From the NCBI GenBank assembly GCA_015056125.1, contig SVGW01000017.1:1-45066 (forward strand): DNA of 45,066 nucleotides, written 5' to 3'. Below, piece after piece: positions 331-12,846 of the stretch. Below the pieces are notes generated by a model. It made no database searches. It was not told where the DNA came from and worked only from the letters and a program-made list of their open reading frames with translations. The stretch's first letter is position 1. Each line of letters opens with the position of its first letter. Both the position numbers and the translations under genes were made by a program. The DNA is from Clostridiales bacterium. Lineage in GTDB: Bacteria > Bacillota > Clostridia > Christensenellales > Aristaeellaceae.

Positions 331-517
331 TCAGTCAAAAGCAGGATTGAAAGCATAGAAATTCTTGCTGTCCAAGCGCTCCTGCACAATGCGCATCAAT
401 TCGCCAAAGCGCTGATAATGCACGATTTCACGGGCGCGAAGGAACTTCATCACCTGGTTCACATCGGGATTATCGCTCAGGCGCAGAATATTTTCGTAGG
501 TGGTGCGGGCCTTTTGC
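331..517 (-). CDS. cotJC, C-terminal part (split gene)
   Basis: These 61 codons encode the C-terminal third of CotJC, a manganese-catalase-like spore coat protein. Read on the minus strand from 516 they give QKARTTYENIL, then the typical FLRAREIVHYQRFGELMRIV stretch, and end NPAFD followed by TGA at 331-333. There is no start codon or ribosome site of its own. The first codon is shared: its first two bases are 11819-11818 and its third is 517, giving GAG (Glu) after excision of the intervening element. The joined gene has 197 codons, a normal CotJC length. As it stands the fragment should not be translated. The split position, not decay, explains the truncation: no stop or frameshift is seen inside. 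Confidence 0.9.
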
Positions 518-542
518 TCTGGTACGATCTCATAAGCACAAC
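511..542. other. attL-like junction (cotJC 3' half / element)
   Basis: Left boundary of the 11.3-kb element. The host side ends at cotJC codon Q137 and the crossover lies in TCTG at 518-521, which also occurs at 11818-11821. The element side (525-542, cgatctcataagcacaac) is the near-perfect inverted partner of 11795-11812 at the other end. When the two ends are joined the arms flank a 12-bp centre whose middle dinucleotide is the TC at 518-519. A 2-bp crossover with little shared homology is characteristic of serine recombinases. The recombinase stop codon is 36 bp away. Confidence 0.85.
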
Positions 543-557
543 ATACAGCCTCCTTTT

Positions 558-2111
558 TTAGAAATTCCAGTGGATTTCAATGGGAACATCCTTCGTTTTT
601 GGAATTCTCTTTCCTACGCAGATGTGGTCAATCAGCACTTCCACAGCATCTCGGGTCAGATGGTCCATGGTTACATACTTTTCTACAATGGACCGGCGGT
701 TGTCTCCGATGGCAATGCGTTCATCCAATGCAGCCGCCTGACATTCTGCATCCTGAATAAGCAGTTCCAAGTGTTCCCGATCTTGAAGAAAGCTTTGTGA
801 CATATCAGTATAATCCGCATCCGTAATCAGCCCCTTCACTTTATCCATATACAGATTGCGGATGCCTTTGGAATACTCTTCTATCCGTTTTCGGTAAGCG
901 GATATGTTGTTGTGAAGCTGCTTCTTTTGATCTTTCAGATTATTGGCGAAAGCGATTCCCTGCGCTACTGCATCTTCATCCAAATAGGAAGAAGATAAGC
1001 GCCGCAATTCCTCCAGTACAAGCCGTTCAAGCTTTGCCACCTGGATGAAGGAGCCTATGCAGGCATCCTTGGACAGGTGGCGGCTTCCGCATTTCAGATA
1101 ATGAATATCGCGATTTTTACAGGTGCGCATGGCATATCCGCAATTGGCGCAAACAACTTTTCGCGCAAAAATTCCCACGGTTCCGTTGCCCCAGGGCTTC
1201 GATTTCTGAACAATCAGCTTCTGAACCCGATTCCACAATTCCCTGTCAATAATCGGCTCATGGGTTCCTTCAACGATGTACCACTCGCTTTTGGGCCGGG
1301 GCTTATTCTGCTTCGTTTTATAGGATACGCTGCCGTACTTGCCCTGAACCATGTTGCCAATGTAAATTTCATTGATGAGCATATCAGAAATCGCAAAGTA
1401 TCGCCAAAGCGTGCTATTTTTCGTTTTGGGCTGCTGATACCGAAGTCCCTTCAGGCGCTTGTATTCAGTGGGGTTCGGGATTCCGCGGTCATTGAGCAGC
1501 CGAGCAATAGCGTTTTTTCCCATACCCGAAGCAAACAAGTTGAAAACCTCGCGCACAATGGCTGCTGCTTCCTCATCGATGATCAGATGCCCCTTCTGAT
1601 CAGGATCCTTCTTATACCCATACAACGCGAATGCACCGATATGAAAGCCGTTCTCCCGCCGGTTGGTCAGCACGCTACGGATGTTCTCGGACATATCCTC
1701 CAAGTACCACTCGTTGACCAGGCCGTTGATCTGGCGGGATTTTTTGTTTCCTTTATTCGCTGTATCTGCATTATCAACAATGCTGACAAAACGAATGCCC
1801 CAGATTGGGAAAAGGCCATGGATATACTTTTCAACCAGTTCCAGTTCACGGGTAAAACGGGATTGCGTTTTGCACAGAACGATATCAAACTTTCGTTGCT
1901 CTGCATCATTCAGAAGCCTTACAAATTCCGGCCGGCGGCGATCTGAACCGGTATAGTCATCGTCGCTGTATATCTGATAAACTTCCCACCCCATTTCCGC
2001 CGCATATTGCAGCAGCATTGCTTTCTGATTCTGAATGCTGTTGCTATCATCCGTTGCGCATTGCTTATTCCTGTCTTCCTCCGACAGACGACAATAAAGA
2101 GCTGCCTTCAT
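558..2111 (-). CDS. Large serine recombinase
   Basis: Site-specific DNA recombinase of the large serine family, 517 residues. The N-terminal resolvase domain has the nucleophile Ser10 in YCRLSEED and the SRFTREL stretch near residue 85. A recombinase domain follows (about 155-300: GYKKDP, ARLLNDRGIPNP), then a zinc ribbon with Cys321, Cys324, Cys341 and Cys351. A predicted coiled coil spans about 387-450. These proteins cut both strands with a 2-bp stagger and join attP to attB; excision usually needs a small directionality factor. The gene reads in the same direction as cotJC, and its stop is 36 bp from the attL core, as usual for such elements. It is the obvious enzyme for inserting and removing the element. 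No reliable SigE or SigK promoter could be recognised upstream. Confidence 0.95.
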   Translation of the reverse strand: MKAALYCRLSEEDRNKQCATDDSNSIQNQKAMLLQYAAEMGWEVYQIYSDDDYTGSDRRRPEFVRLLNDAEQRKFDIVLCKTQSRFTRELELVEKYIHGLFPIWGIRFVSIVDNADTANKGNKKSRQINGLVNEWYLEDMSENIRSVLTNRRENGFHIGAFALYGYKKDPDQKGHLIIDEEAAAIVREVFNLFASGMGKNAIARLLNDRGIPNPTEYKRLKGLRYQQPKTKNSTLWRYFAISDMLINEIYIGNMVQGKYGSVSYKTKQNKPRPKSEWYIVEGTHEPIIDRELWNRVQKLIVQKSKPWGNGTVGIFARKVVCANCGYAMRTCKNRDIHYLKCGSRHLSKDACIGSFIQVAKLERLVLEELRRLSSSYLDEDAVAQGIAFANNLKDQKKQLHNNISAYRKRIEEYSKGIRNLYMDKVKGLITDADYTDMSQSFLQDREHLELLIQDAECQAAALDERIAIGDNRRSIVEKYVTMDHLTRDAVEVLIDHICVGKRIPKTKDVPIEIHWNF

Positions 2112-2186
2112 AAATCCCTGCTCCTATCCTGGGCCATTCAGGCATGCCGTTTCACAAGATGAATATATCACTTTATATCCCTCCTG

Positions 2187-2345
2187 TCATTTCTGCCGCA
2201 ATTCGGATACGTTGGGGCATTGTTCTAACCGGTTAATCAGTTCAATCCATTTTCGGATAAACGCCTCCGATCGTTCCTCCACGGAAGTGCTTTTGAATAT
2301 ACTTTTGCATAACAGGGTGCTTTCCGCTGCCATCTGCACATTCAT
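2187..2345 (-). CDS. Small protein upstream of recombinase (possible directionality factor)
   Basis: A 52-codon ORF whose stop lies 75 bp before the recombinase start, same strand. The predicted peptide starts MNVQMAAESTLL and continues through a charged helical part (SVEERSEAFIRKWIELINR) to SELRQK. AAGGAGGG lies directly before the first ATG, so the second Met (2333) may be the real start, giving 48 residues. Composition resembles a real protein rather than a random frame. I do not recognise a family. Small genes next to the recombinase act as directionality factors in some elements (sprB of SPbeta is 58 residues). By position this is the best candidate, but that is inference. Confidence 0.5.
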   Translation of the reverse strand: MNVQMAAESTLLCKSIFKSTSVEERSEAFIRKWIELINRLEQCPNVSELRQK

Positions 2346-2818
2346 CCCTCCTTGCTATATAATCCACAATATGACGCAAAGAGAAGACACTATGACTCCT
2401 CGAATTTCTCTTTCGCCTGCCTAATAGCAATTTTCAATCATTTGTGCGTGCGCAGGCTATAACCGGCTTCAGTCATATCATAGCCCCACATATACCGCCG
2501 TCCCCCGGACAAGCGCATACCGCAGGAACTCCCCGTCAGTCAACGCGGGGCCGTGAGGAAGTATCATTATCCCATGCCGGATCATCGCGCCCTGCCTGCC
2601 ACAGCAGAGTCAATGGATTGCGTTGATCGCTCTGGCAATGCCGTCATCGCGCCGCTCCATTTGCCGCTCCCTCAACATAGGGTCTGTACCTGGGCACTGA
2701 ATGTGAAGTTGTCAAGGAACGGTGGTGCTCCGATTCTTGTAATTCATCCGGAGAGCTGCTCAAAAATCAATTTCAAAAACAGACAATCGCATTTTTTATT
2801 TCATTTTTGGACATTTCA
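2346..2818. other. Gene-poor stretch inside the element
   Basis: No gene can be supported. The first 350 bp are GC-richer and the minus strand holds two short open stretches that look like protein remnants: one at about 2610-2710 ending RRDDGIARAINAIH, and one at about 2500-2600 containing LTDGEFLRYALVRG. Neither has a usable start signal. They may be decayed pieces of genes once upstream of the recombinase. The switch to AT-rich sequence occurs at about 2750, just before the cargo promoter. Confidence 0.35.
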
Positions 2819-2847
2819 TTGACTTTATACAGCAATTTTGTTACGAT
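2819..2847 (+). promoter_or_regulatory. SigA-type promoter of the cargo operon
   Basis: TTGACT (2819-2824), 17-bp spacer, TACGAT (2842-2847). The AGGAGG ribosome site follows at 2855-2860 and the regulator ATG at 2869, so the leader would be very short. Confidence 0.6.
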
Positions 2848-2868
2848 TAAAAAAAGGAGGTGTATTAT

Positions 2869-3765
2869 ATGAAAAACTCACATTTTAAAAAGATTAATCT
2901 TTTAAGTCCTGAATGCAATGACGATTTATTATTTGAAAGGGGTTTATTCTCGATAAGTATTGCAGATGCTTTCTTTCTTGATATGCGTGATTGCGATTAT
3001 CCCTTTACACAACCAATAGACAGACACAATTTATACGAACTTGATATGGTTATAAAAGGATATTGTCATTTTGAATTCCCTGCTAAGAAAGCATTAACCG
3101 TAACACAAGGGAAATTTATTATAATACCTCCTTTTGTAAAACATAAAATCACTTTTGAAAGTAATGATTCTTCAAGAGTAAAATTTCTTTTCACCTTTAT
3201 TTCTAAAGATGGTGCAAATAACTTTTTAACAACAGCAGAAAATATCTTAAAAAATAATTATGTATTTTCGTATAATGAGCAAATGCAATCACTTCTATCT
3301 TTTATGATAGATATGTCCACTAATATGCCCTCAGAATATAAGGCAAGTATATTCTTATATGCAAATGCTTACATAATTGAAGCGTTACGTATAGTAGCAA
3401 CCGAAAAGATAGTTAAAGAAAATGAAACCACAAAAATACTAAACTCCGCAACCGAATACATCGCACTCAATGCTTCCGCAACGCTTAGTGTTCCTGATGT
3501 TGCTGATTTTGTCGGCATTTCCCCCAAACAACTTTCGAGAATTTTTTGTAAACACATAGGGATCTCACCAGGAAAATATATCAAAAATTGCAGAATATCA
3601 CGAATATCAAATTTTCTTATATTTTCCAATTTATCAATTTCAGATATAGCTGAAACAATGGCGTATCCCGACTATGCTTCTTTTGTAAACGCCTTTAAAA
3701 GAGCTAAAGGTTGTACACCTACTCAATACAGGAAAAAAATAAAATCCAATAATGCAACAACTTAA
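2869..3765 (+). CDS. AraC-family transcriptional regulator
   Basis: Predicted sugar-responsive DNA-binding regulator, 298 residues. The N-terminal half is a cupin-like sensing domain (about 30-110; YELDMVIKGYCHFEF, then GKFIIIPPFVKHKITF). The C-terminal 100 residues carry two helix-turn-helix motifs (LSVPDVADFVGISPKQLSRIF and LSISDIAETMAYPDYASFVNAF) and end with the family hallmark GCTPTQYRK. The ATG at 2869 is chosen because AAAAGGAGG sits 8 bp upstream; a GTG at 2860 overlaps that site. It is the first gene of the glycan-enzyme operon (37 bp to the next gene), so it probably controls that operon in response to a released sugar. Base composition is AT-rich like the following genes. Confidence 0.93.
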   Translation: MKNSHFKKINLLSPECNDDLLFERGLFSISIADAFFLDMRDCDYPFTQPIDRHNLYELDMVIKGYCHFEFPAKKALTVTQGKFIIIPPFVKHKITFESNDSSRVKFLFTFISKDGANNFLTTAENILKNNYVFSYNEQMQSLLSFMIDMSTNMPSEYKASIFLYANAYIIEALRIVATEKIVKENETTKILNSATEYIALNASATLSVPDVADFVGISPKQLSRIFCKHIGISPGKYIKNCRISRISNFLIFSNLSISDIAETMAYPDYASFVNAFKRAKGCTPTQYRKKIKSNNATT

Positions 3766-3802
3766 TGAAAGATGATGTATTAACAATAAGAAGGTGACTT
3801 AT

Positions 3803-5785
3803 ATGATTAAATTTGAAAATTATATCATGCCTGCAGCTTCTATTGGCAGGGAAAATCCCATGCCTGATATAAAAAACGTAAGCTATATACACGCAGGCTA
3901 TGAAATGACTGATAAGGTGAAGGAAGATGAAAAGACATACATTGGAAAAGGCATGATTTCCACAATGCTTCCTTATAAGATGCAGGACGGATACAACCGT
4001 GATAAAAAAGACCGTGCATTCAAGGCGGCAGTTTTGGAAAACGACTTTATTAAGGCTGTATTTTTGCCGGAACTGGGAGGCAGATTATGGTCGATCTATG
4101 ATAAAAAGCTGGAACGGGAGCTTTTATACGTTAACCCTGTTTTCCAGCCGGGAAATCTTGCGCTTAGAAACGCGTGGTTCAGCGGCGGTGTGGAATTTAA
4201 CGTAGGTATAAAGGGGCACAACCCTCTTACCTGCTCCCCCATGTGGTGTGCAGTGGATAAATGTGATGAAGGCGAGGTTTTGCGCCTTTATGAATTTGAA
4301 CGCATACGCGGAGTTGTGTACAGCATCAGTGCATGGCTGCCGGAAGATTCATCTGTTCTTTACATAAAAGGCAGAATAGAAAATACAACGTCTGAAGAAA
4401 AGCATATGTATTGGTGGTCTAACATTGCAGTTCCCGAAACAAAGGAAACAAGGGTGTTTGTACCGACCGATGATTCTTTTTTAAGCTTTTATAATGAAAA
4501 TCACTATATTCTTGATAAGGCAGCAATCCCTGTTCACGAGGGATTTGATGTAACATATCCCTGTAAAATCCCATCATCGCGTGACTTTTTCTATAAAATA
4601 CCTGAAAAAAATCATAAGTGGATCGCTACGGCTAATAAAGAGGGAAATGGGCTTTTGCAATGTTCAACACAAAAATTAAAAGGCAGAAAACTCTTTGTGT
4701 GGGGCATGGGACAAGGCGGAAGAAACTGGAACGAATGGCTTTCCCAGGAAGGCTCTGCGTATATAGAAATTCAGGCAGGCCTTGCACATACGCAGCTTGA
4801 GCACATACCTATGCCGGGCAACACCGTATGGGAGTGGACGGAAGCTTATACCGCGCTTGGCCTTGACGCAAACATTGCACACGGTGACTATAAAAACGCA
4901 ACCGAAGAAATTGAAAAATATATATTAAACCGCATCGGCAACCCTGACGAGCTTACATTCCCCAATCAGGAAAATGCCAAGAAATCGGAAATTATATACA
5001 AGGGTTCTTCCTGGGGTGCGGTTGAAGAGCTTGTAAGAGGCGAAAAAGTAAGCAGTATATGTCAGTTCCCCGTCAGTGCAGACAGCGAAACCGATGAATG
5101 GACAATGCTTGTTAAGGCGAATATATTCCCTGAACCCGATACAGACGATGAACCCGTAAGCTATGTTACCGGAAAATACTGGCTTGAAAAGCTTGAAGCT
5201 TTGCCCCAGCAAAGCTGGTACAGCATGCTGCACATCGGTGTTGTAAAATATGCCGGCGGCGATGTAGAGGGTGCAATAAAAGCATGGGAAAAGTCAGCAG
5301 AATTGAAAGCCTCCCCGTGGGCACTGCGCAATCTTTCAATGATTTATAAAAATGAACTTGGGGATAAAAAAACGGCAAGAGAATATATCCTGAAGGCATT
5401 TGAACTGAAAAAGGACTGCCCCGCTCTTTGCAGCGAAGTTGCCGCACAGCTTACGACAGATGGCGGTGACGAAATGTGGCTCGATATTTTCAGCGCACTT
5501 TGTGACAAAATAAAAAATCTTGGCAGAATACGTCTTTACCGTGCAGTTTCGCTTATAAATCTCGGGAAACTGAAAGAAGCCACCGAAATTGTTAACCCTG
5601 ATTTTGTGATGAGTGATATTAAAGAAGGAGAACTTTCAATTTCATATTTGTGGTTTGAACTTTATCGCAGGCTTTATGCCATGGAAAATAATGTGAAATA
5701 TGATCCTGCAAATGAAGAACTAATAAAAGAGGCAGATAAAAAATATCCTCTTCCAAAGAAACTTGACTACAGAATGCATGATTAA
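3803..5785 (+). CDS. DUF5107 / TPR protein
   Basis: About 660 residues. The N-terminal half resembles the DUF5107 family, a beta-sandwich related to aldose-epimerase and carbohydrate-active folds (LPELGGRLWSIYDKKLERELLY, GGVEFNVG, MYWWSNIAVPE). The C-terminal part (about 470-640) looks like tetratricopeptide repeats (GDVEGAIKAWEKSAELK, KKTAREYILKAFELKKD, NLGKLKEATEIV). No signal peptide is seen, so it is probably cytoplasmic. Proteins of this type occur in polysaccharide-use clusters; the substrate is unknown. The start ATG at 3803 follows AAGAAGG with about 8 bp spacing; an in-frame GTG at 3794 overlaps that site. The next gene starts 12 bp after the stop, with its own AAGGAGG. Confidence 0.8.
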   Translation: MIKFENYIMPAASIGRENPMPDIKNVSYIHAGYEMTDKVKEDEKTYIGKGMISTMLPYKMQDGYNRDKKDRAFKAAVLENDFIKAVFLPELGGRLWSIYDKKLERELLYVNPVFQPGNLALRNAWFSGGVEFNVGIKGHNPLTCSPMWCAVDKCDEGEVLRLYEFERIRGVVYSISAWLPEDSSVLYIKGRIENTTSEEKHMYWWSNIAVPETKETRVFVPTDDSFLSFYNENHYILDKAAIPVHEGFDVTYPCKIPSSRDFFYKIPEKNHKWIATANKEGNGLLQCSTQKLKGRKLFVWGMGQGGRNWNEWLSQEGSAYIEIQAGLAHTQLEHIPMPGNTVWEWTEAYTALGLDANIAHGDYKNATEEIEKYILNRIGNPDELTFPNQENAKKSEIIYKGSSWGAVEELVRGEKVSSICQFPVSADSETDEWTMLVKANIFPEPDTDDEPVSYVTGKYWLEKLEALPQQSWYSMLHIGVVKYAGGDVEGAIKAWEKSAELKASPWALRNLSMIYKNELGDKKTAREYILKAFELKKDCPALCSEVAAQLTTDGGDEMWLDIFSALCDKIKNLGRIRLYRAVSLINLGKLKEATEIVNPDFVMSDIKEGELSISYLWFELYRRLYAMENNVKYDPANEELIKEADKKYPLPKKLDYRMHD

Positions 5786-5797
5786 GGAGGAAATATT

Positions 5798-7825
5798 ATG
5801 AGAATAACAAAACCTTTTTTACCCTTAAGAGTTGAAACAAACGACCTTTCTCACAAGGTAAACGTTGCAGGAAGAAGTTATACCTTCGGTGCTGACGGCA
5901 TGATTAAATCGGTTATAGTTGAAGGTCAGGAGCTTTTAGCAGAGCCGATGAAAATTATTATGATTGAAGACGGAAAGGAATCTGTTTTTGATAATAACTA
6001 TCCGGATAATGAAAGCGAAAGCTTTATCCAAAGCAGGAGTGATGAAAAAGCCATTATTTGCGGTTGTAAGCAAAGTGACAGATTCATCATTAACTTTTGC
6101 ACCACTGTAAAATATGACGGAAATATTGATATTGACATGAGACTTATGACCAGAGGCAGAACTGTCGCTCAAATTTTCGGTCTTGATAAATTCAATGAGC
6201 TTTTGTATAAACTTGATCACTTATGGTTAGAAGTTCCACTGAAAAAAGAAATAGCAGCAATGTATCATATGTATGACAACAGTGATATTTATTTAAAGGA
6301 TGGCGGTATTATACCAAAGGGACGTACAACAACAAGCGGTATGATTCCGGAAATTGATGCAGCTGTTCCCTTTAAATCCTTGCTTTGGTTAGGCAATGAC
6401 GCTAAAGGGCTTGGTTGGTTTGCAGAAAAATGCAAAAACTGGCAACCGAAAGATGAAAATAGGGCAATTGAAATCATTCGCAAGGAAGAGAGCATTGTCT
6501 TGAGAATACATCTTCTGGATAGTCATCCAATTTCATGGAACGGTGATTTAAAGCGCGGATATACTGATTTCAAACCCATAGAATTTCAATTTGGTTTTAT
6601 TGCAACACCTGTAAAGCAATTTCCGGAGAACCCGTATATTCATAAAGCTTTCCATGTTGACTGTGGTATAAAAATAAAAGGAAATTATATGGACTTTTTT
6701 GCAAGTGAAAATAGATTTGACCGACTTGTTGAAAAAGGCGTAGATACCCTAATACTTCACGAAAAGTGGAATAAATCACAAAACTGGTTTGATCTTTCCG
6801 AATATACAGCTAAACAACTTTCTTACATTGTTGACGAATGCCATAAAAGGGGTATCAAGGTTCTTCCTTATTTTGGATACGAAATATCCACATTGTCTCC
6901 CGAGTGGACAAATCTTAAGGAAAATGTTGTTTACAGATATGAAGACGGTACAATGCTCGGTGGATGGTGGAGAGTTCCGTTCCAGAGAGACCACAAGGTA
7001 TGCTATAACAGTGAGTATGCAGATTTATTTATTGATGGCATTGCAAAGCTTATGGATACATATAACATTGACGGTGTCTATCTTGACGGTACCGCTATGC
7101 CAAGATGCTGTTATAATATTGAACACGGATGCGGTTGGTATAATGAAAAAGGCGAACTTAAGGGCACATACACAATAAAAGCAGTAAGAGATTTGTTTGA
7201 AAGATTATATAAAGAAGTCAAACATAGAGGGGGACATGTAAATGTCCATGCTTCCGGATACGTAAACTACACAGCATTACCTTATATCGACCAGTTGTGG
7301 ATGGGTGAAGATCTGCAATTTGAACTAAACAAAGGAACTGACAAAGATGTAAACATCGACTATTTCCGTGCAGAATACTCCGGACGGAATATGGGCGTAC
7401 CAGTAGAGTTTATTGCTTATGAAAATCGTCCCGTGTGGACATTTGAACAGGCACTTTCCTGCTCCATACTTCACGGAATACTGCCAAGACCGAATGATAT
7501 AGAATATCCTTTAACACTTATGAGTAAAGTATGGAAAATATTTGACAGTTTTCCAATTGCACTGTCCGAATGGATGCCATATTGGAAAAATGGTGCAGAA
7601 ACAACACATGAAAAGGTAAAAGTCAGCTATTACAAATATACAACCATTACAGGAAAGACACAGCTCTTGGCATTTTTGGTAAACATATCATCACAGGATA
7701 TCAAAAATGTAACTTTGAAAATCAATGAGAATGTATCTGATATAATCAATACAGAAACTATGGAAGCCACAGGTTTTACTTTAGATATAAACCCATACGG
7801 ATATAAAATTTTATATATTAGCTAA
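5798..7825 (+). CDS. Putative glycoside hydrolase (DUF6067/GH123-like)
   Basis: 675 residues without a signal peptide. Domains: an N-terminal beta-sandwich (to about 270), a TIM-barrel-like catalytic part (about 280-600) and a small C-terminal beta domain. Barrel features include DTLILHEKW, RGIKVLPYFGYE, the acidic YNIDGVYLDGT near residues 422-432, NVHASGYVNY, and DQLWMGEDLQF with a second acidic pair. The layout resembles DUF6067 proteins, related to GH123 beta-N-acetylgalactosaminidases, though family assignment from memory is not certain. It probably acts on imported oligosaccharides in the cytoplasm together with the GH29 and GH20 neighbours. The start is supported by AAGGAGG 7 bp upstream. 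Confidence 0.7.
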   Translation: MRITKPFLPLRVETNDLSHKVNVAGRSYTFGADGMIKSVIVEGQELLAEPMKIIMIEDGKESVFDNNYPDNESESFIQSRSDEKAIICGCKQSDRFIINFCTTVKYDGNIDIDMRLMTRGRTVAQIFGLDKFNELLYKLDHLWLEVPLKKEIAAMYHMYDNSDIYLKDGGIIPKGRTTTSGMIPEIDAAVPFKSLLWLGNDAKGLGWFAEKCKNWQPKDENRAIEIIRKEESIVLRIHLLDSHPISWNGDLKRGYTDFKPIEFQFGFIATPVKQFPENPYIHKAFHVDCGIKIKGNYMDFFASENRFDRLVEKGVDTLILHEKWNKSQNWFDLSEYTAKQLSYIVDECHKRGIKVLPYFGYEISTLSPEWTNLKENVVYRYEDGTMLGGWWRVPFQRDHKVCYNSEYADLFIDGIAKLMDTYNIDGVYLDGTAMPRCCYNIEHGCGWYNEKGELKGTYTIKAVRDLFERLYKEVKHRGGHVNVHASGYVNYTALPYIDQLWMGEDLQFELNKGTDKDVNIDYFRAEYSGRNMGVPVEFIAYENRPVWTFEQALSCSILHGILPRPNDIEYPLTLMSKVWKIFDSFPIALSEWMPYWKNGAETTHEKVKVSYYKYTTITGKTQLLAFLVNISSQDIKNVTLKINENVSDIINTETMEATGFTLDINPYGYKILYIS

Positions 7826-7879
7826 ATTATATTTTTTCACAACAACAAATATAAACATCTTATTGCAAGGAGAATTTTT

Positions 7880-9652
7880 ATGAACAACACAGGATTTAAA
7901 AAAATGCTTGATGATCGTTTTGGTATGTTTGTGCACTACGGAATATACAGTGCAATGGCAGGACGATATCAAGGAAGAGAATGTAAGGGTATAGGTGAAT
8001 GGATACAGCACACCCTTGAAATTCCCATAACTGAATATGAAGCTTTCGGCAGAAAAAATTTTCTTACGAAGCCTGATTTTGCCCAAGAACTTGTTTCAGC
8101 GGCAAAGTCCGCCGGCATTAAATATATAGTGCTTACAACTAAACATCACGATGGCTTTTGTCTTTTTAAAAGCGACTATACAGATTATTCTACATACGGT
8201 TTTTGGGGACGTGATATATGCAAAGAGCTTTCAGATGAATGCAGAAAACAAGGTCTGGAAGTGGGTTTTTACTATTCGCACGCTCTTGACTGGCACGAAA
8301 AAGATGCGGGCGGTAACTTTCATTGTATACACAGAAGATATGAACGTCACAGAAATTATTGGGATTATCCAGATGATAACATTGATTTTGAAAAATACCT
8401 TCGCAAAAAATGTTTTCCGCAGGTTAAGGAACTACTCACAAACTATGGTGACTTAAAACTCATATGGTTTGACTTTCCCCATGATATCACAAAAGAGCAG
8501 TCTATGGAACTTCGAGAACTCGTTAAAAGTATTCAACCAAACTGTCAAATAAATTCGCGTATTGCACATGACTGCAATGACTACGAATCCCTTGGTGACA
8601 ATACACTTCCGATAGCACCTGTAGGTGTAAATACCGAATGTTTAGTTACACTTAACAATACCTGGGGTTATAAGGAAGATGATCACAACTGGAAAACACC
8701 CGAGGAAAACATTGGTATTCTTTGTAGGTGTTTGTGTGCAGATTCATCGTTGCTTTTAAACGTTGGTCCAAAGGGTGATGGCACTCTTACAGAAGAAACT
8801 TTAAATATTCTCAATAAAATGGGTGAGTGGACAAGCAGAAATGCAGAAGCTGTTTATAACGGTGTAAAAGGCAATCCCTTCTCGTCGCTGTTCCCATGGG
8901 GCTATGTATCACATAAGGATAACAATATTTACCTTTACATTGAAAATGATAAAAATGATGAAATAATACTTAACATCGGCGAAAGTAACCGCATGAAAGA
9001 TATCACTATTTTAGGATACAACCACAAACCCGAATATACTTATTCAGATAATCAGCTTATAATAAAGGTATTAAAAACACCTTTTGCCGTACCTGTATAC
9101 AAAGTAGAATTTGATGATATTCCCGTCTTCCCCAAAGAACCTTTGCAAAATGGAGATACATTATCTCTTGGCGCTTTATGGGCAGGTAAAGTCTTAAAAG
9201 ACAATGAAAATTCCACACCGACAAAACTCAAATATGAAAAGAGTACGTTTATTCCCGACTACGGCAAAAACGGACTTGCAATAAACAAAAACTGTCACGC
9301 GTATTTTTGGGATGATTGCAAAGAAATTATGTGTTGGGATGCTTGTTTTGAAAAAGAAGGTGAATATTCCGCAACCCTGATTCATGCATCATTTACACCT
9401 GAGGAAGAATATAAAAAAGATAATATGTGTGACTTTAAAATTACTGTTAACGGTGTCACCAATGATGTTAATATGAAAGAAGAAACCTCCCGTTACTCAA
9501 TCAGCAGAACATCAAATGCATATAATTTAAGAATCTGCCACAATGCAGGCATATTTACAATCCCTAAACCGGGAAAATATCGTATATTGCTTGAACGCAG
9601 CGAAAATGGTGAAAGTACACCTGTAACAAGTATCGAATTCAAACAAATATAA
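7880..9652 (+). CDS. Alpha-L-fucosidase-like enzyme (GH29)
   Basis: 590 residues, no signal peptide. The catalytic barrel occupies about 1-345 and shows GH29 features: RFGMFVHYGIYS at the start, the KHHDGF motif (88-93), VGFYYSHALDWH, and the predicted nucleophile Asp198 in LIWFDFP, followed by NSRI and LLLNVGPKGDG. GH29 enzymes remove alpha-linked fucose by a retaining mechanism; the acid/base cannot be placed by eye. Two beta-type domains follow (about 350-590). The start ATG has AAGGAG 7 bp upstream, and the next gene begins 14 bp after the stop. With GH20-like and GH123-like neighbours this suggests breakdown of fucosylated, amino-sugar-containing host glycans such as mucin or glycolipid chains. 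The specific linkage is unknown. Confidence 0.9.
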   Translation: MNNTGFKKMLDDRFGMFVHYGIYSAMAGRYQGRECKGIGEWIQHTLEIPITEYEAFGRKNFLTKPDFAQELVSAAKSAGIKYIVLTTKHHDGFCLFKSDYTDYSTYGFWGRDICKELSDECRKQGLEVGFYYSHALDWHEKDAGGNFHCIHRRYERHRNYWDYPDDNIDFEKYLRKKCFPQVKELLTNYGDLKLIWFDFPHDITKEQSMELRELVKSIQPNCQINSRIAHDCNDYESLGDNTLPIAPVGVNTECLVTLNNTWGYKEDDHNWKTPEENIGILCRCLCADSSLLLNVGPKGDGTLTEETLNILNKMGEWTSRNAEAVYNGVKGNPFSSLFPWGYVSHKDNNIYLYIENDKNDEIILNIGESNRMKDITILGYNHKPEYTYSDNQLIIKVLKTPFAVPVYKVEFDDIPVFPKEPLQNGDTLSLGALWAGKVLKDNENSTPTKLKYEKSTFIPDYGKNGLAINKNCHAYFWDDCKEIMCWDACFEKEGEYSATLIHASFTPEEEYKKDNMCDFKITVNGVTNDVNMKEETSRYSISRTSNAYNLRICHNAGIFTIPKPGKYRILLERSENGESTPVTSIEFKQI

Positions 9653-9666
9653 GGAGAGATGTTGTT

Positions 9667-11514
9667 TTGATTTTTTCAAATATTGAAGAAACAAAAAAAA
9701 TGCAAATTAACCGTTTGTGGGGCAAGATTTCATTGTCCGAATGTGACAATTATATAATTGAATATTCAAAAGGTAATAATCTAATAGTTTGTAAAAAAGC
9801 TAATAGAATTACTGTTACTTATGCAAATGATTCGCAGCTTTTCCGTTCAGTTATGCTTTCTGCAGAATTAATCAGCGATGGAGTTGACAGAGAAATATGT
9901 GAGACTGAGCAATTTGAACGAAAAGGCGTAATGATTGATTTATCCCGCGCAGGGGTAATGAATATTGATACTATTAAAAATTATATTGAATATATGGCTC
10001 TTTGGGGACTTAATTCTCTTATGCTTTATATGGAGGATGTTTATGAGGTGGATGATCTTCCGTATTTTGGATATATGAGAGGTAGGTACTCAAAGGATGA
10101 ACTTAAGGAAATTGACAGATACGGTCTTTTGTACGGTGTGGAGATTATTCCCTGCATACAAACTTTAGGCCATTTTGAACAGTATATAAAGTGGAGTGAC
10201 GGAAGAAAAATATCCGATACCCCTTCTGTCATTATGCCCGGTGCTGAAGAAAGCCTTGAATTTATAGACAAGCTTTTGTCCACTGTTTCGGAATGCTTCA
10301 CTACAAGACTTATTCACATAGGAATGGATGAGGCGTGGGGTATAGGTAGCGGAAATTACCTGAAAAAATATGGATTTGAAAATCCGACGAAAATATTCTG
10401 TGATCATCTTGCAAAGGTTAAAAAATTGACTGAAAAATACAATTTCAGACCTATGATGTGGAGTGATATGTATTTTCGTCTTGCTTCCTCATCAGGACAA
10501 TATTATGATACTGAAGTTAAGTTTGATGATTTTGTCAAAAAACTTGTGCCCGATGATATAGGGCTTGTATATTGGGATTATTACAACAGCAAAGAAATAG
10601 TTTGCAATATGCTAAAAAAACACCATGAGCTTACTCATAACATAGTATTTGCAGGTGCTGTATGGCTGTGGGCAGGTTTATTGCCTGACTATAAACTTAC
10701 AGTTGATTCAACAAATGATGCTCTTAATATGTGCAAGAAAGAGGGAATAAAAAATGTATATGCAACCATATGGGGAGATGACGGTTGTGAAACGGATATA
10801 CATTTTTCTCTTCCTGGTATTATGCTGTACGGTGAACACTCATACAATAAGCATGTTGACCGTGGAATACTGAACAAAAGACTGAAGTTACTTTTTAATA
10901 CTGATATGGAAGTGTTTGAGCGTATATCCAAAGCACTTTATCCAATCGAAAACTTCTCACCCCAAAAACGAACTGTGCTTTCGGCCAAACACATTGTGTA
11001 CAACGATATTCTATGCGGTCTTGCAGACTACGAAATGAGAAATGACGAATTACCGCTGCTTTATAGAAAGCTTTATGAAGAATTTAAAGCCAATTCAGAA
11101 AAAGATGGAGTATTTAAAGAATGGTTTGAATATGTTGCAACGATATGTAATATCTGTTGTATAAAAACTGATGTATCTATTAAACTTTGCGATGGTTGCG
11201 GCAATAGAGAAGTTCTTATAAACGTGGCAGAAAATTTACTTCCAGAACTTTTAAATGAATATTCAAAGCTCAAACATATTCACTTTAAAATATGGCATAA
11301 ATCCTATCGCCCGTTCGGCTTTGAAATAGTAGACGGAAGATACGGATGGGCAATGGAAAGAATACGAACTGCAATTATGCGCATAAACGGATATCTTGAC
11401 GGAACCTTTGATTCACTACCTGAGCTATCAGTGGAAAAACTACCTTTTGCAAGTAAATCATATTTTACTAAGCACACAAGTATAGCTTCTGCATTTATGC
11501 CCAAAGGTTGGTAA
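9667..11514 (+). CDS. GH20-like beta-N-acetylhexosaminidase
   Basis: 615 residues starting at TTG with AGGAGAG 8 bp upstream. The N-terminal region (about 1-80) resembles the small alpha/beta domain before GH20 barrels. The barrel begins at ERKGVMIDLSRAG (84-96), continues with EIIPCIQTLGHFEQY, and carries the family's Asp-Glu pair in HIGMDEAWGIG (Asp221, Glu222), where Asp orients the N-acetyl group and Glu is the acid/base. VWLWAG and TIWGDDG follow. A helical C-terminal domain (about 400-600) is unassigned. No signal peptide. It is the last gene of the cargo operon and probably removes terminal beta-linked GlcNAc or GalNAc inside the cell. Confidence 0.82.
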   Translation: MIFSNIEETKKMQINRLWGKISLSECDNYIIEYSKGNNLIVCKKANRITVTYANDSQLFRSVMLSAELISDGVDREICETEQFERKGVMIDLSRAGVMNIDTIKNYIEYMALWGLNSLMLYMEDVYEVDDLPYFGYMRGRYSKDELKEIDRYGLLYGVEIIPCIQTLGHFEQYIKWSDGRKISDTPSVIMPGAEESLEFIDKLLSTVSECFTTRLIHIGMDEAWGIGSGNYLKKYGFENPTKIFCDHLAKVKKLTEKYNFRPMMWSDMYFRLASSSGQYYDTEVKFDDFVKKLVPDDIGLVYWDYYNSKEIVCNMLKKHHELTHNIVFAGAVWLWAGLLPDYKLTVDSTNDALNMCKKEGIKNVYATIWGDDGCETDIHFSLPGIMLYGEHSYNKHVDRGILNKRLKLLFNTDMEVFERISKALYPIENFSPQKRTVLSAKHIVYNDILCGLADYEMRNDELPLLYRKLYEEFKANSEKDGVFKEWFEYVATICNICCIKTDVSIKLCDGCGNREVLINVAENLLPELLNEYSKLKHIHFKIWHKSYRPFGFEIVDGRYGWAMERIRTAIMRINGYLDGTFDSLPELSVEKLPFASKSYFTKHTSIASAFMPKGW

Positions 11515-11554
11515 TAAAAAAATTTGAAACTCTGCGCTAATATGAACCAAAAGT

Positions 11555-11622
11555 GATATAGTCCCCATAGAGTAGACACACGAAAAAACAAAATTTCGAG
11601 ACTACTCTATGGGGACTATATC
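11555..11622. repeat. 21-bp perfect inverted repeat
   Basis: Arms 11555-11575 and 11602-11622 match perfectly over 21 bp, with a 26-nt loop that itself begins and ends with cgaaa/tttcg. There is no following T-run, so it is not a standard terminator. It lies 40 bp after the last cargo gene and about 170 bp inside the right end of the element. It could stabilise the transcript end, mark the ends of a lost insertion sequence, or bind a protein. Confidence 0.85.
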
Positions 11623-11624
11623 AG

Positions 11625-11789
11625 ATGCTTGAATGTAACATCAGAACAGTTCTTTCGATTTCTTACTGTCAGGGCTTGTCCTCCAGTGAAACGGCCTACC
11701 GCAGCCCATTTTTCTATGATGTTGTTCTTACAGGATCGCAGCATTCCAAAATGCTGCTTTCAGAAACCCAGTATTTTCAAGGTGTTTAG
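11625..11789 (+). CDS. Doubtful 54-residue ORF at the element's right end
   Basis: An open frame starts two bases after the 21-bp inverted repeat and encodes MLECNIRTVLSISY, with a serine- and threonine-rich middle, ending YFQGV. There is no good ribosome site and no family is recognised. It ends six bases before the attP arm. It may be the remnant of a gene or chance. Confidence 0.25.
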   Translation: MLECNIRTVLSISYCQGLSSSETAYRSPFFYDVVLTGSQHSKMLLSETQYFQGV

Positions 11790-11794
11790 GTCTT

Positions 11795-11821
11795 GTTGTT
11801 CTTATGCAATCGCAGCATCTG
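11795..11821. other. attR-like junction (element / cotJC 5' half)
   Basis: Right boundary of the element. The arm 11795-11812 (gttgttcttatgcaatcg) pairs with 525-542 at the other end: 15 of 18 positions match as an inverted repeat. The crossover lies in TCTG at 11818-11821. To the right, the sequence is cotJC coding sequence (minus strand) up to Ala135 and the first two bases of codon 136. Confidence 0.85.
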
Positions 11822-12224
11822 CCGCCATATTTTCATGCAGATCGGTGATGGGATCGCCCTTCACCTGCAAATAGGCCGCATTGAAGGGATGGCCGGCAGC
11901 GGACTGGAGATATACGCCGTTGGTGTGATCCACAAAGGAATCATCAATGCCGGCGGCTTTGATTTGAGCAATGCTCATGCGGCAGGTGAGCTGGCGCACC
12001 ACGCTGCCCACCATCTCAAGATGGGCCAGTTCTTCCGTGCCAATATCGGTGAGCATGGCCTTGGCTTCGGGATGAGGCATATGATAGCGCTGAGAAAGAT
12101 AGCGCATGGAGGCAGCCAATTCCCCATCGGCGCCGCCAAACTGAGAAATGATCACCTTGGCCAGGCGGGGATCGGTGGCATTGATATTCACAGGAAACTG
12201 CAATTGCTTTTTATAAATCCACAT
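11818..12224 (-). CDS. cotJC, N-terminal part (split gene)
   Basis: Encodes residues 1-135 and two bases of codon 136 of CotJC, a ferritin-fold manganese-catalase homologue of the inner spore coat. Visible family features: MWIYKKQLQFPV at the start, ADGELAASMRYLSQRY, then metal-ligand type acidic and histidine residues in DIGTEELAHLEMV, and DPITDLHENMAA at the break. As the DNA stands, translation would run four residues into the element and stop at 11802, giving a 140-residue truncated protein lacking the last helix. After excision, codon 136 becomes GAG and the frame continues at 516. The start has AAGGAGG 8 bp upstream and lies 15 bp after cotJB. Expression in the mother cell is expected from the family. 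Confidence 0.93.
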
Positions 12225-12239: not shown

Positions 12240-12611
12240 TTACTCCGCACAATTGGGGCAGCAGCCATCCCAAGGCCAGGGATCTTCCACCCAGCTCCAG
12301 CAAATGGGGCAGCAATCCCCATTCTGACATTCGCAGCCGCAGGTGCTATCCATCAGTTCATCCAGATTGCCGCAGGAAGAGCAGGCGGCATTATCCATCC
12401 AATCCAGGGCGCTGCCGGAAAGCTCTTCGCATTCATTGGCGCAATCCAGATCAATGGAAGCATAATTGGCGCAGTTGGCCTTTTTGATCAGCTGATAATA
12501 CAGCTTAAGCGCACAGCGATCATTGGGATGGGAATTAAGATACAGGCGGATTTCCCAGGCCGCGAAGGGCAGGGTATAATCATGCAGAGACTTTTCATGC
12601 ATTCCGGCCAC
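12240..12611 (-). CDS. CotJB spore coat protein
   Basis: 123 residues. The N-terminal 60 residues match the CotJB core (LPFAAWEIRLYLNSHPNDRCALKLYYQLI). The C-terminal half is unusually rich in Cys, Asp and Trp (CGCECQNGDCCPICWSW, then WPWDGCCPNCAE), with about a dozen cysteines, and may bind metal or form disulfides in the coat. The GTG start at 12611 has GGGAGG 8 bp upstream; an ATG at 12602 is possible and would overlap the cotJA stop as ATGCATGA. It lies between cotJA and cotJC in the usual order, so the three are one operon. Confidence 0.9.
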   Translation of the reverse strand: MAGMHEKSLHDYTLPFAAWEIRLYLNSHPNDRCALKLYYQLIKKANCANYASIDLDCANECEELSGSALDWMDNAACSSCGNLDELMDSTCGCECQNGDCCPICWSWVEDPWPWDGCCPNCAE

Positions 12612-12846
12612 AGGCGCAACCTCCCCTCACGCCCGTAAAGGGCTTATCCAGTTCGGGAAACAGGGTGCCCGCGAAAAGGGCCTGCTCCAGAGAATAGGCA
12701 TTTTTCAGGCACTGCATGGGCACGTAGGCCATGGCCAGGGCCAGGTTCTGGTTATTATTGCTGCCGGTGCGAATCATCCGGCCATTATCCCGGTTCGCGC
12801 CGGAGCGATCTATGGTCATCGCATAATCCATCATGCGCAGCCTCAT
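12595..12846 (-). CDS. CotJA spore coat associated protein
   Basis: Up to 83 residues; first gene of the cotJ operon. It has the CotJA core: LALAMAYVPMQCLKNAYSLEQALFAGTLFPELDKPF, here split by position into AMAYVPMQ and GTLFPELDKPF. It ends with a Cys/Gly tail (GGCACGRNA). The second start (Met5, 12834) has a better spaced GAGG than the first. The stop overlaps the start of cotJB by 17 bases if GTG is used there. No convincing sporulation sigma promoter was recognised upstream; a short GGGTGA/TCACCC hairpin lies at about 12865-12885. Confidence 0.88.
   Translation of the reverse strand: MRLRMMDYAMTIDRSGANRDNGRMIRTGSNNNQNLALAMAYVPMQCLKNAYSLEQALFAGTLFPELDKPFTGVRGGCACGRNA

Follow-up and report, generated by a model that had tools for sequence, protein, structure and literature searches.

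A putative cotJC-intervening element with a large serine recombinase and a candidate directionality factor in a Clostridiales bacterium

The interrupted cotJC locus

The window analyzed here (45,066 nt, positions 1 to 45,066 of contig SVGW01000017.1, GenBank assembly GCA_015056125.1) comes from a Clostridiales bacterium of the family Aristaeellaceae. It carries the sporulation genes cotJA, cotJB and cotJC on the minus strand, and cotJC is divided into a 5' piece and a 3' piece by an inserted element with a large serine recombinase gene. Membership of the CotJC/Mn catalase family is based on PF05067, which spans both halves, and on the position of the gene after cotJA and cotJB. Copies of TCTG are found at 518-521 and 11818-11821. 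Within these, the common core TC (GA on the cotJC strand) occupies 518-519 and 11818-11819, and the element therefore extends from 518 to 11817 (11,300 bp). This confirms the original prediction, made from the sequence alone, of a cotJC gene split by a recombinase element of about 11.3 kb, and its TCTG boundaries (517/11818) agree with the mapped copies. The element ends are near-palindromic: the GA core, which forms bases 1-2 of Glu codon 136, is flanked by 23-bp arms.

Joining the two pieces at the shared core gives a single 197-aa frame with GAG as codon 136, as had been predicted. The joined CotJC aligns without gaps to the intact CotJC of three genomes of the same genus (88.8% identity to two of them and 78.7% to the third). 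These genomes (G001, G017 and G022) carry the uninterrupted cotJC that the original prediction had proposed to look for in relatives. Judged from the reading frames, the insert lies inside a sporulation gene whose two halves remain open and in frame with each other; the recombinase gene is also open. The only PF05067 matches in the source genome (122 contigs, 82% complete) are the two cotJC pieces, and no complete second cotJC, named beforehand as a finding that would count against excision, is found in this 82%. SpoIVA is encoded in the same genome.

The recombinase is assigned to the large serine recombinase class by its Resolvase, Recombinase and zinc-ribbon domains. It reads toward the cotJC 3' piece and the cargo genes lie on the opposite strand (Table 1). 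No phage structural or lysis genes were found among the five large cargo genes (a regulator, a DUF5107 protein and glycan enzymes). The inverted repeat 3' of the cargo operon is possibly a terminator or a small-repeat remnant.

Table 1. Features of the interrupted cotJC locus (window coordinates).
Feature	Position	Strand	Evidence
cotJC 3' piece, remainder of codon 136 through stop; other core copy at 518-519	331..517	-	Mn_catalase E 8.8e-10; joined frame
Inserted element, 11,300 bp	518..11817		Junction sequences; intact cotJC of G001, G017, G022
Element arm beside cotJC 3' piece (attP half-site), inverted match of 11795-11817	520..542		Junction sequence and consensus
Large serine recombinase, 517 aa	558..2111	-	Domain matches: Resolvase, Recombinase, zinc ribbon, DUF4368
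52-aa gene immediately 5' of recombinase, candidate recombination directionality factor	2187..2345	-	Profile match E 5.9e-17
Sigma-E-like promoter ATA-N17-CATATTGT	2366..2393	-	Motif search
Cargo: AraC-family regulator	2860..3765	+	Domain match
Cargo: DUF5107 protein	3794..5785	+	Domain match
Cargo: GH123-N/GHL6-like glycoside hydrolase	5798..7825	+	Domain match
Cargo: alpha-L-fucosidase (GH29 type)	7880..9652	+	Alpha_L_fucos E 1.6e-61
Cargo: GH20-type hexosaminidase	9667..11514	+	Glyco_hydro_20 and GH20C C-terminal domain
Perfect 22-nt inverted repeat, 26-nt loop, 3' of cargo operon	11554..11623		Inverted-repeat search
Element arm beside cotJC 5' piece (attP half-site)	11795..11817		Junction sequence and consensus
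cotJC 5' piece, start at 12224, codons 1-135 and GA of codon 136 (core TC at 11818-11819)	11818..12224	-	Mn_catalase E 4.2e-37; junction sequences
cotJB	12240..12611	-	Pfam CotJB E 6.1e-12
cotJA	12595..12846	-	Pfam CotJA E 2.3e-16

Recombinases, small genes and promoter motifs at codon 136

In a contig scan with five recombinases of the codon-136 position (site A), we found at least 565 relatives, of which the best 80 were kept, each with at least 72% identity. A cotJC piece broken at codon 136 is present in 76 of these 80 loci, which come from metagenome-assembled genomes (MAGs) and named strains, and in 69 it lies no more than 260 bp from the recombinase stop codon. No cotJC piece was detected in the examined locus of L148, L186, L192 and L199. 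The claim that the split is not accidental is thus well supported. The argument first offered for it, restoration of the frame, carries little weight, since excision of any precise site-specific insertion would restore the frame. The GA core opens codon 136 in 45 of 45 five-prime pieces and 79 of 80 three-prime pieces scored; the sole exception is L165, whose core GCAGCAGAGCA is shifted in the alignment. Element arms of the window type also appear in the consensus built from unique junctions (40 five-prime and 77 three-prime, from pieces with GA and full flanks; some loci overlap). The recombinase end adjoins the cotJC 5' piece and not the 3' piece in 12 of the 80 loci (L145, L146, L149, L150, L155, L164, L191, L193, L205, L206, L218 and L220), and the recombinase gene can therefore occupy either element end.

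A class sample of 391 genomes contains eight others with a recombinase at 63-78% identity and four more at 43-44%. Six of the eight adjoin a cotJC piece broken at codon 136; for the remaining two, G623 and G571, pieces broken at that position occur in the same genome. In the recombinase tree (n=79, named rows thinned to about one third), 34 site-A rows and the rows of G623 and G571 form a single clade (100/100). By the junctions and the tree, the recombinase is tied to the cotJC codon-136 junction. Viral contigs (IMG/VR) yielded 14 recombinase relatives, six of them at cotJC. INPHARED phages contain three relatives that reach E 1e-60 or better, with 29-43% identity.

A gene for a protein of about 48 aa is located 5' of the recombinase, usually 77-82 bp ahead, in a total of 88 loci, among them the window and 76 of the 80. 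It was detected with a profile grown from three small frames, with E 1e-3 as the threshold for absence. The misses are L148, L175, L219 (contig begins at recombinase) and L199 (none). At this threshold the small gene was not found in the stretches of two other break sites described below (sites B and C), and five more distant viral-contig relatives gave weak matches. No Pfam, NCBIfam or PHROGs family matched 21 members better than E 0.017. The pooled ratio of nonsynonymous to synonymous substitution rates (dN/dS) is 0.41 (21 pairs). From its linkage to the recombinase, the small protein is a candidate for the recombinase's directionality factor.

The promoter search drew on the sigma-E and SpoIIID consensus of Bacillus subtilis. 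ATA-N15-18-CATA-N2-3-T is found before the small gene in 43 of 57 elements, the window included (57 of the 88 small-gene loci entered the test), with 1.9 expected. None of 200 shuffled sets reached 43; the sequences are related and hence not independent. In 73 loci the upstream DNA was long enough to bin the matches by position: the 200-300 bp bin before the recombinase start has 50, and the other same-strand bins have 0-4; on the opposite strand, up to 13 were counted in a bin, within the recombinase gene. The motif was found near none of 12 site-B and site-C recombinases (within 500 bp) and near 1 of 18 other serine recombinases (within 400 bp). In the source genome, spoIVA has the same motif type at -64. 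In B. subtilis, cotJ is expressed in the mother cell. The small gene is predicted to be under a mother-cell sigma-E-type promoter, here called sigma-E-like.

Frequency and sites of cotJC breakage

The frequency of broken cotJC was estimated in an order sample of 396 genomes, leaving out weak matches near profile 17-80 in frames of other proteins. Among the matches listed, about 81 genomes have a CotJC-type match; at least one full-length copy is present in 64, and a broken cotJC in 23 (about a quarter). As a control, the best match to ribosomal protein L1 was weaker than E 1e-52, taken as a proxy for no near-full-length copy, in 7 of the 382 genomes of the sample with a match. G105, one of the 23, was rejected as a split cotJC, being a contig break with overlapping ends. 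Chance or contig breaks as the general cause of the splits were rejected on the low L1 breakage and the occurrence in named strains. We give almost no credence to an assembly or binning artefact at the locus itself. The window does come from a 122-contig draft and several relatives have their pieces on separate contigs, but the same layout is found on single contigs of Blautia sp. An249, Roseburia faecis M72, Clostridium fessum SNUG30386 and Parablautia intestinalis D8-82, and L1 is rarely broken.

A serine recombinase is found on the examined stretch with a cotJC piece in 18 of the 23 genomes (in G344 it is 8.7 kb away and of another group). None was found on the examined stretches of G105 (contig break), G113, G255, G110 and G046. 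The three break positions are codon 136 (site A), the DIGTEE motif (site B) and the GGPDSE motif (site C, in one genome of the order sample). From an alignment to Mn catalases of known structure and the ligand numbering assumed for L. plantarum catalase, we take Glu 136 to be a Mn ligand, and each of the three site motifs presumably contains or adjoins one.

The site-B recombinases were drawn as two groups (8 + 3) and the site-C recombinase stands alone on a very long branch. Two separate origins of the site-B recombinases are not forced: two changes are drawn, the starred branches force one, and one is seen in 22% of bootstrap trees. The second group consists of G140 (L098/L097), L105 and L103. 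In G140, the two cotJC pieces overlap by about 21 bp at the junction, far above the others. In three of the IMG/VR loci (L225, L226 and L227) the cotJC piece spans only profile 62-136, and cotJC in these is therefore probably also split at site B.

Some genes are broken more than once. In G571, cotJC is in four pieces (profile 1-32, 26-65, 63-141 and 133-193) on three contigs; a recombinase lies within about 50 bp of pieces 2 and 3, and a site-A recombinase with the small gene is located about 1.8 kb past piece 3. Blautia sp. An249 has three cotJC pieces in order on one contig, with a spacing of about 12 and 29 kb, and L203 has three pieces on a single contig. Fifteen further genomes with titles lacking 'MAG' were picked from the 80 and searched whole: cotJC is in pieces in all 15, and 13 have no full-length copy. 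In one of them (G803, genome of L162), the 5' and 3' pieces are out of order on the same strand of contig C11, and the middle piece is found on a different contig; an inversion, a misassembly or a recombination between att sites may account for this.

Excision, alternative explanations and known elements

We consider it quite probable that the insert is an intervening element of cotJC, operating in the manner of skin and SPbeta and excised in the mother cell. In such a model, the serine recombinase would have integrated the element at the 2-bp GA core in codon 136, and cotJC would remain split in vegetative cells. During sporulation, the mother-cell sigma-E-type promoter would switch on the small gene ahead of the recombinase; the product would act as the directionality factor and turn the recombinase to excision, attL and attR would recombine, and cotJC would be rejoined for coat assembly. 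The element would be retained in the forespore and thus inherited with its glycan-degrading cargo. If this is true, the cargo rides safely in the germline because removal is confined to the doomed mother cell. The predicted restoration of cotJC by excision is supported: intact cotJC in the same genus, the site-tied recombinase clade, the linked small gene, the sigma-E-like promoter, selection on the halves (below) and the 13 of 15 genomes without a full-length copy point to it, with the limit that no joined form was found in the source genome.

Purifying selection is indicated on the broken halves in the few comparable pairs. Pooled dN/dS is 0.08 for split N halves (3 pairs) and 0.28 for split C halves (15 pairs); intact cotJC gave 0.26 (4 pairs). 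Between the window and the same-genus genome G021, the N half has dS 0.71 and dN 0.08, and the C half has dN 0.05 with saturated dS. The integrase dS for this pair was set aside because the G021 contig stops matching inside the recombinase. Two pairs of loci (L185/L207 and L189/L210) match at 91-95% over most of the element and have open halves, which hints at an old split state in these pairs. These results make it very improbable that the insertion has decayed, with cotJC a pseudogene and the element now immobile. Such decay would fit the failure to find an excised form in the source genome or in a 'plasmid' record described below, and contig C12 of G021 matches just the end of the window's recombinase. 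Against it, the window has an open recombinase gene and two open cotJC halves, split-half dN/dS is well under 1, and the pairs at 91-95% keep open halves.

A more serious alternative, which we still regard as rather unlikely, is that cotJC serves as a conserved attachment site for an ordinary integrative element or prophage, one that excises rarely or under stress and whose carriers manage without CotJC. It would account for the varied mobile-type cargo of elements elsewhere (MobA/MobL, MATE, GmrSD and iron uptake) and the recombinase relatives in viral contigs. Loss of CotJC in B. subtilis is described as being without apparent defect (PMC12122855). Among 24 same-genus genomes, PF05067 is full-length in three, in pieces in one (G021) and without a match in 20, so that CotJC is often dispensable in the genus. 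Against this alternative stand the purifying selection on the halves in the compared pairs, the sigma-E-like motif at a fixed position ahead of the small gene, and the 13 of 15 whole-searched genomes without another full-length copy.

Several findings, besides these 20 genomes, weigh against mother-cell excision. Excision is inferred, not observed, because neither a joined cotJC nor the predicted circle junction was found in the source genome. A 'plasmid' record with a recombinase 65.6% identical, taken up as a possible excised circle, was rejected because the cotJC 3' piece is still on it. An intact full-length paralogue is also present in 6 of the 23 broken-cotJC genomes (among the matches listed), and two of the 15 genomes searched whole (G800 and G802) have a full-length copy. 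G344 (L088) has a site-A break and an element end of the usual type, but the one recombinase detected, 8.7 kb away, is of another group; its stretch has no small-gene match and the contig ends ahead of the cotJC 3' piece. The pairs available for dN/dS are few, and an AlphaFold model of the small protein was weak (pLDDT 69) and was not used. The strict promoter motif precedes spoIVA in 8 of 28 loci and is lacking in 20. Ahead of cotJC its frequency does not rise above background (12 of 77), and a common motif there, hence a timing shared with cotJ, is unsupported. A sigma-K-like pattern was also found in 4 of the 57 elements (shuffle mean 0.4).

Mother-cell excision has precedents. In Clostridioides difficile, the skin element splits sigK and carries the recombinase CD1231 and the directionality factor CD1234, a small protein under sigma-E and SpoIIID control that makes the mother-cell recombinase carry out excision (PMC5025042). 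The cotJC element resembles it in splitting a sporulation gene and in its serine recombinase with Resolvase, Recombinase and zinc-ribbon domains (PMC5025042); it differs in its target (cotJC versus sigK) and its glycan-degrading cargo. CD1234 has 72 aa versus 52 aa for the protein of the window (family about 48), the two being compared by length and description. SPbeta/spsM of B. subtilis (SprA/SprB) likewise combines an integrase with a small directionality factor under a mother-cell promoter and rejoins a spore-outer-layer gene (PMC6957869; see PMC4191935), but it is a prophage, whereas the large cargo genes of the window are non-phage. The gin element in gerE of Bacillus cereus (GirC, GirX) is a phage-gene-free element in a sporulation gene that a serine recombinase and an additional factor excise; it differs in having three recombinase genes, a size of 28.6 kb and another target (PMC5595907). 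The yin element in yabG of Clostridium botulinum is a clostridial sporulation-gene insert with a recombinase and a putative directionality factor, reported from one strain only, whereas the cotJC family is widespread (PMC10747680). The C. difficile phage phi027 was rejected as a cotJC insertion: the gene is placed downstream of its attR and is unsplit.

The targets of intervening elements named in these papers are few: sigK, spsM, spoVFB, gerE, yabG and kamA (PMC5595907, PMC10747680, PMC6957869). No report of a split cotJC was found in the accessible text of the open-access literature, including PMC11222575 and PMC12122855, a scope with few subscription papers and no preprints. The gene cotJC adds a further sporulation target. 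About one in four cotJC-bearing genomes in the order sample (among the matches listed) have it broken, as do many named gut strains; several recombinase groups are involved, with a shared candidate switch. On balance we favor the view that in gut Clostridia cotJC serves as a docking gene for developmental DNA splicing. At least three and probably four recombinase lineages would use it at three Mn-ligand-motif sites, sometimes together, with up to four pieces and three excisions per gene of about 197 codons; the site-A lineage would bring its switch along, in the form of a new directionality-factor family (about 48 aa) driven by a sigma-E-type promoter. Such elements may explain 'broken' cotJC genes of gut genomes, and they provide many new sets of a recombinase, attachment sites and a probable directionality factor. 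The old question of whether elements of this kind are tolerated parasites, regulators or a general means of carrying cargo through sporulation becomes testable.

Outside the recombinase and cotJ, no match longer than 150 bp to the window element was found at E 1e-10 in the other site-A loci, many of which are partial elements. Cargo elsewhere includes iron-siderophore uptake, MATE pumps, a relaxase (MobA/MobL), GmrSD, AlbA-type proteins, a CotH kinase with a sensor kinase, and a phosphate transporter. The recombination unit is thus common to the family, and the cargo seems exchangeable. The element of L204 carries an intact 221-aa Mn catalase (7100-7765) as cargo while splitting cotJC, as if a replacement were supplied. 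A tyrosine integrase (L077, 3691-5142) is located inside the site-A element of G132 and is possibly part of a nested element.

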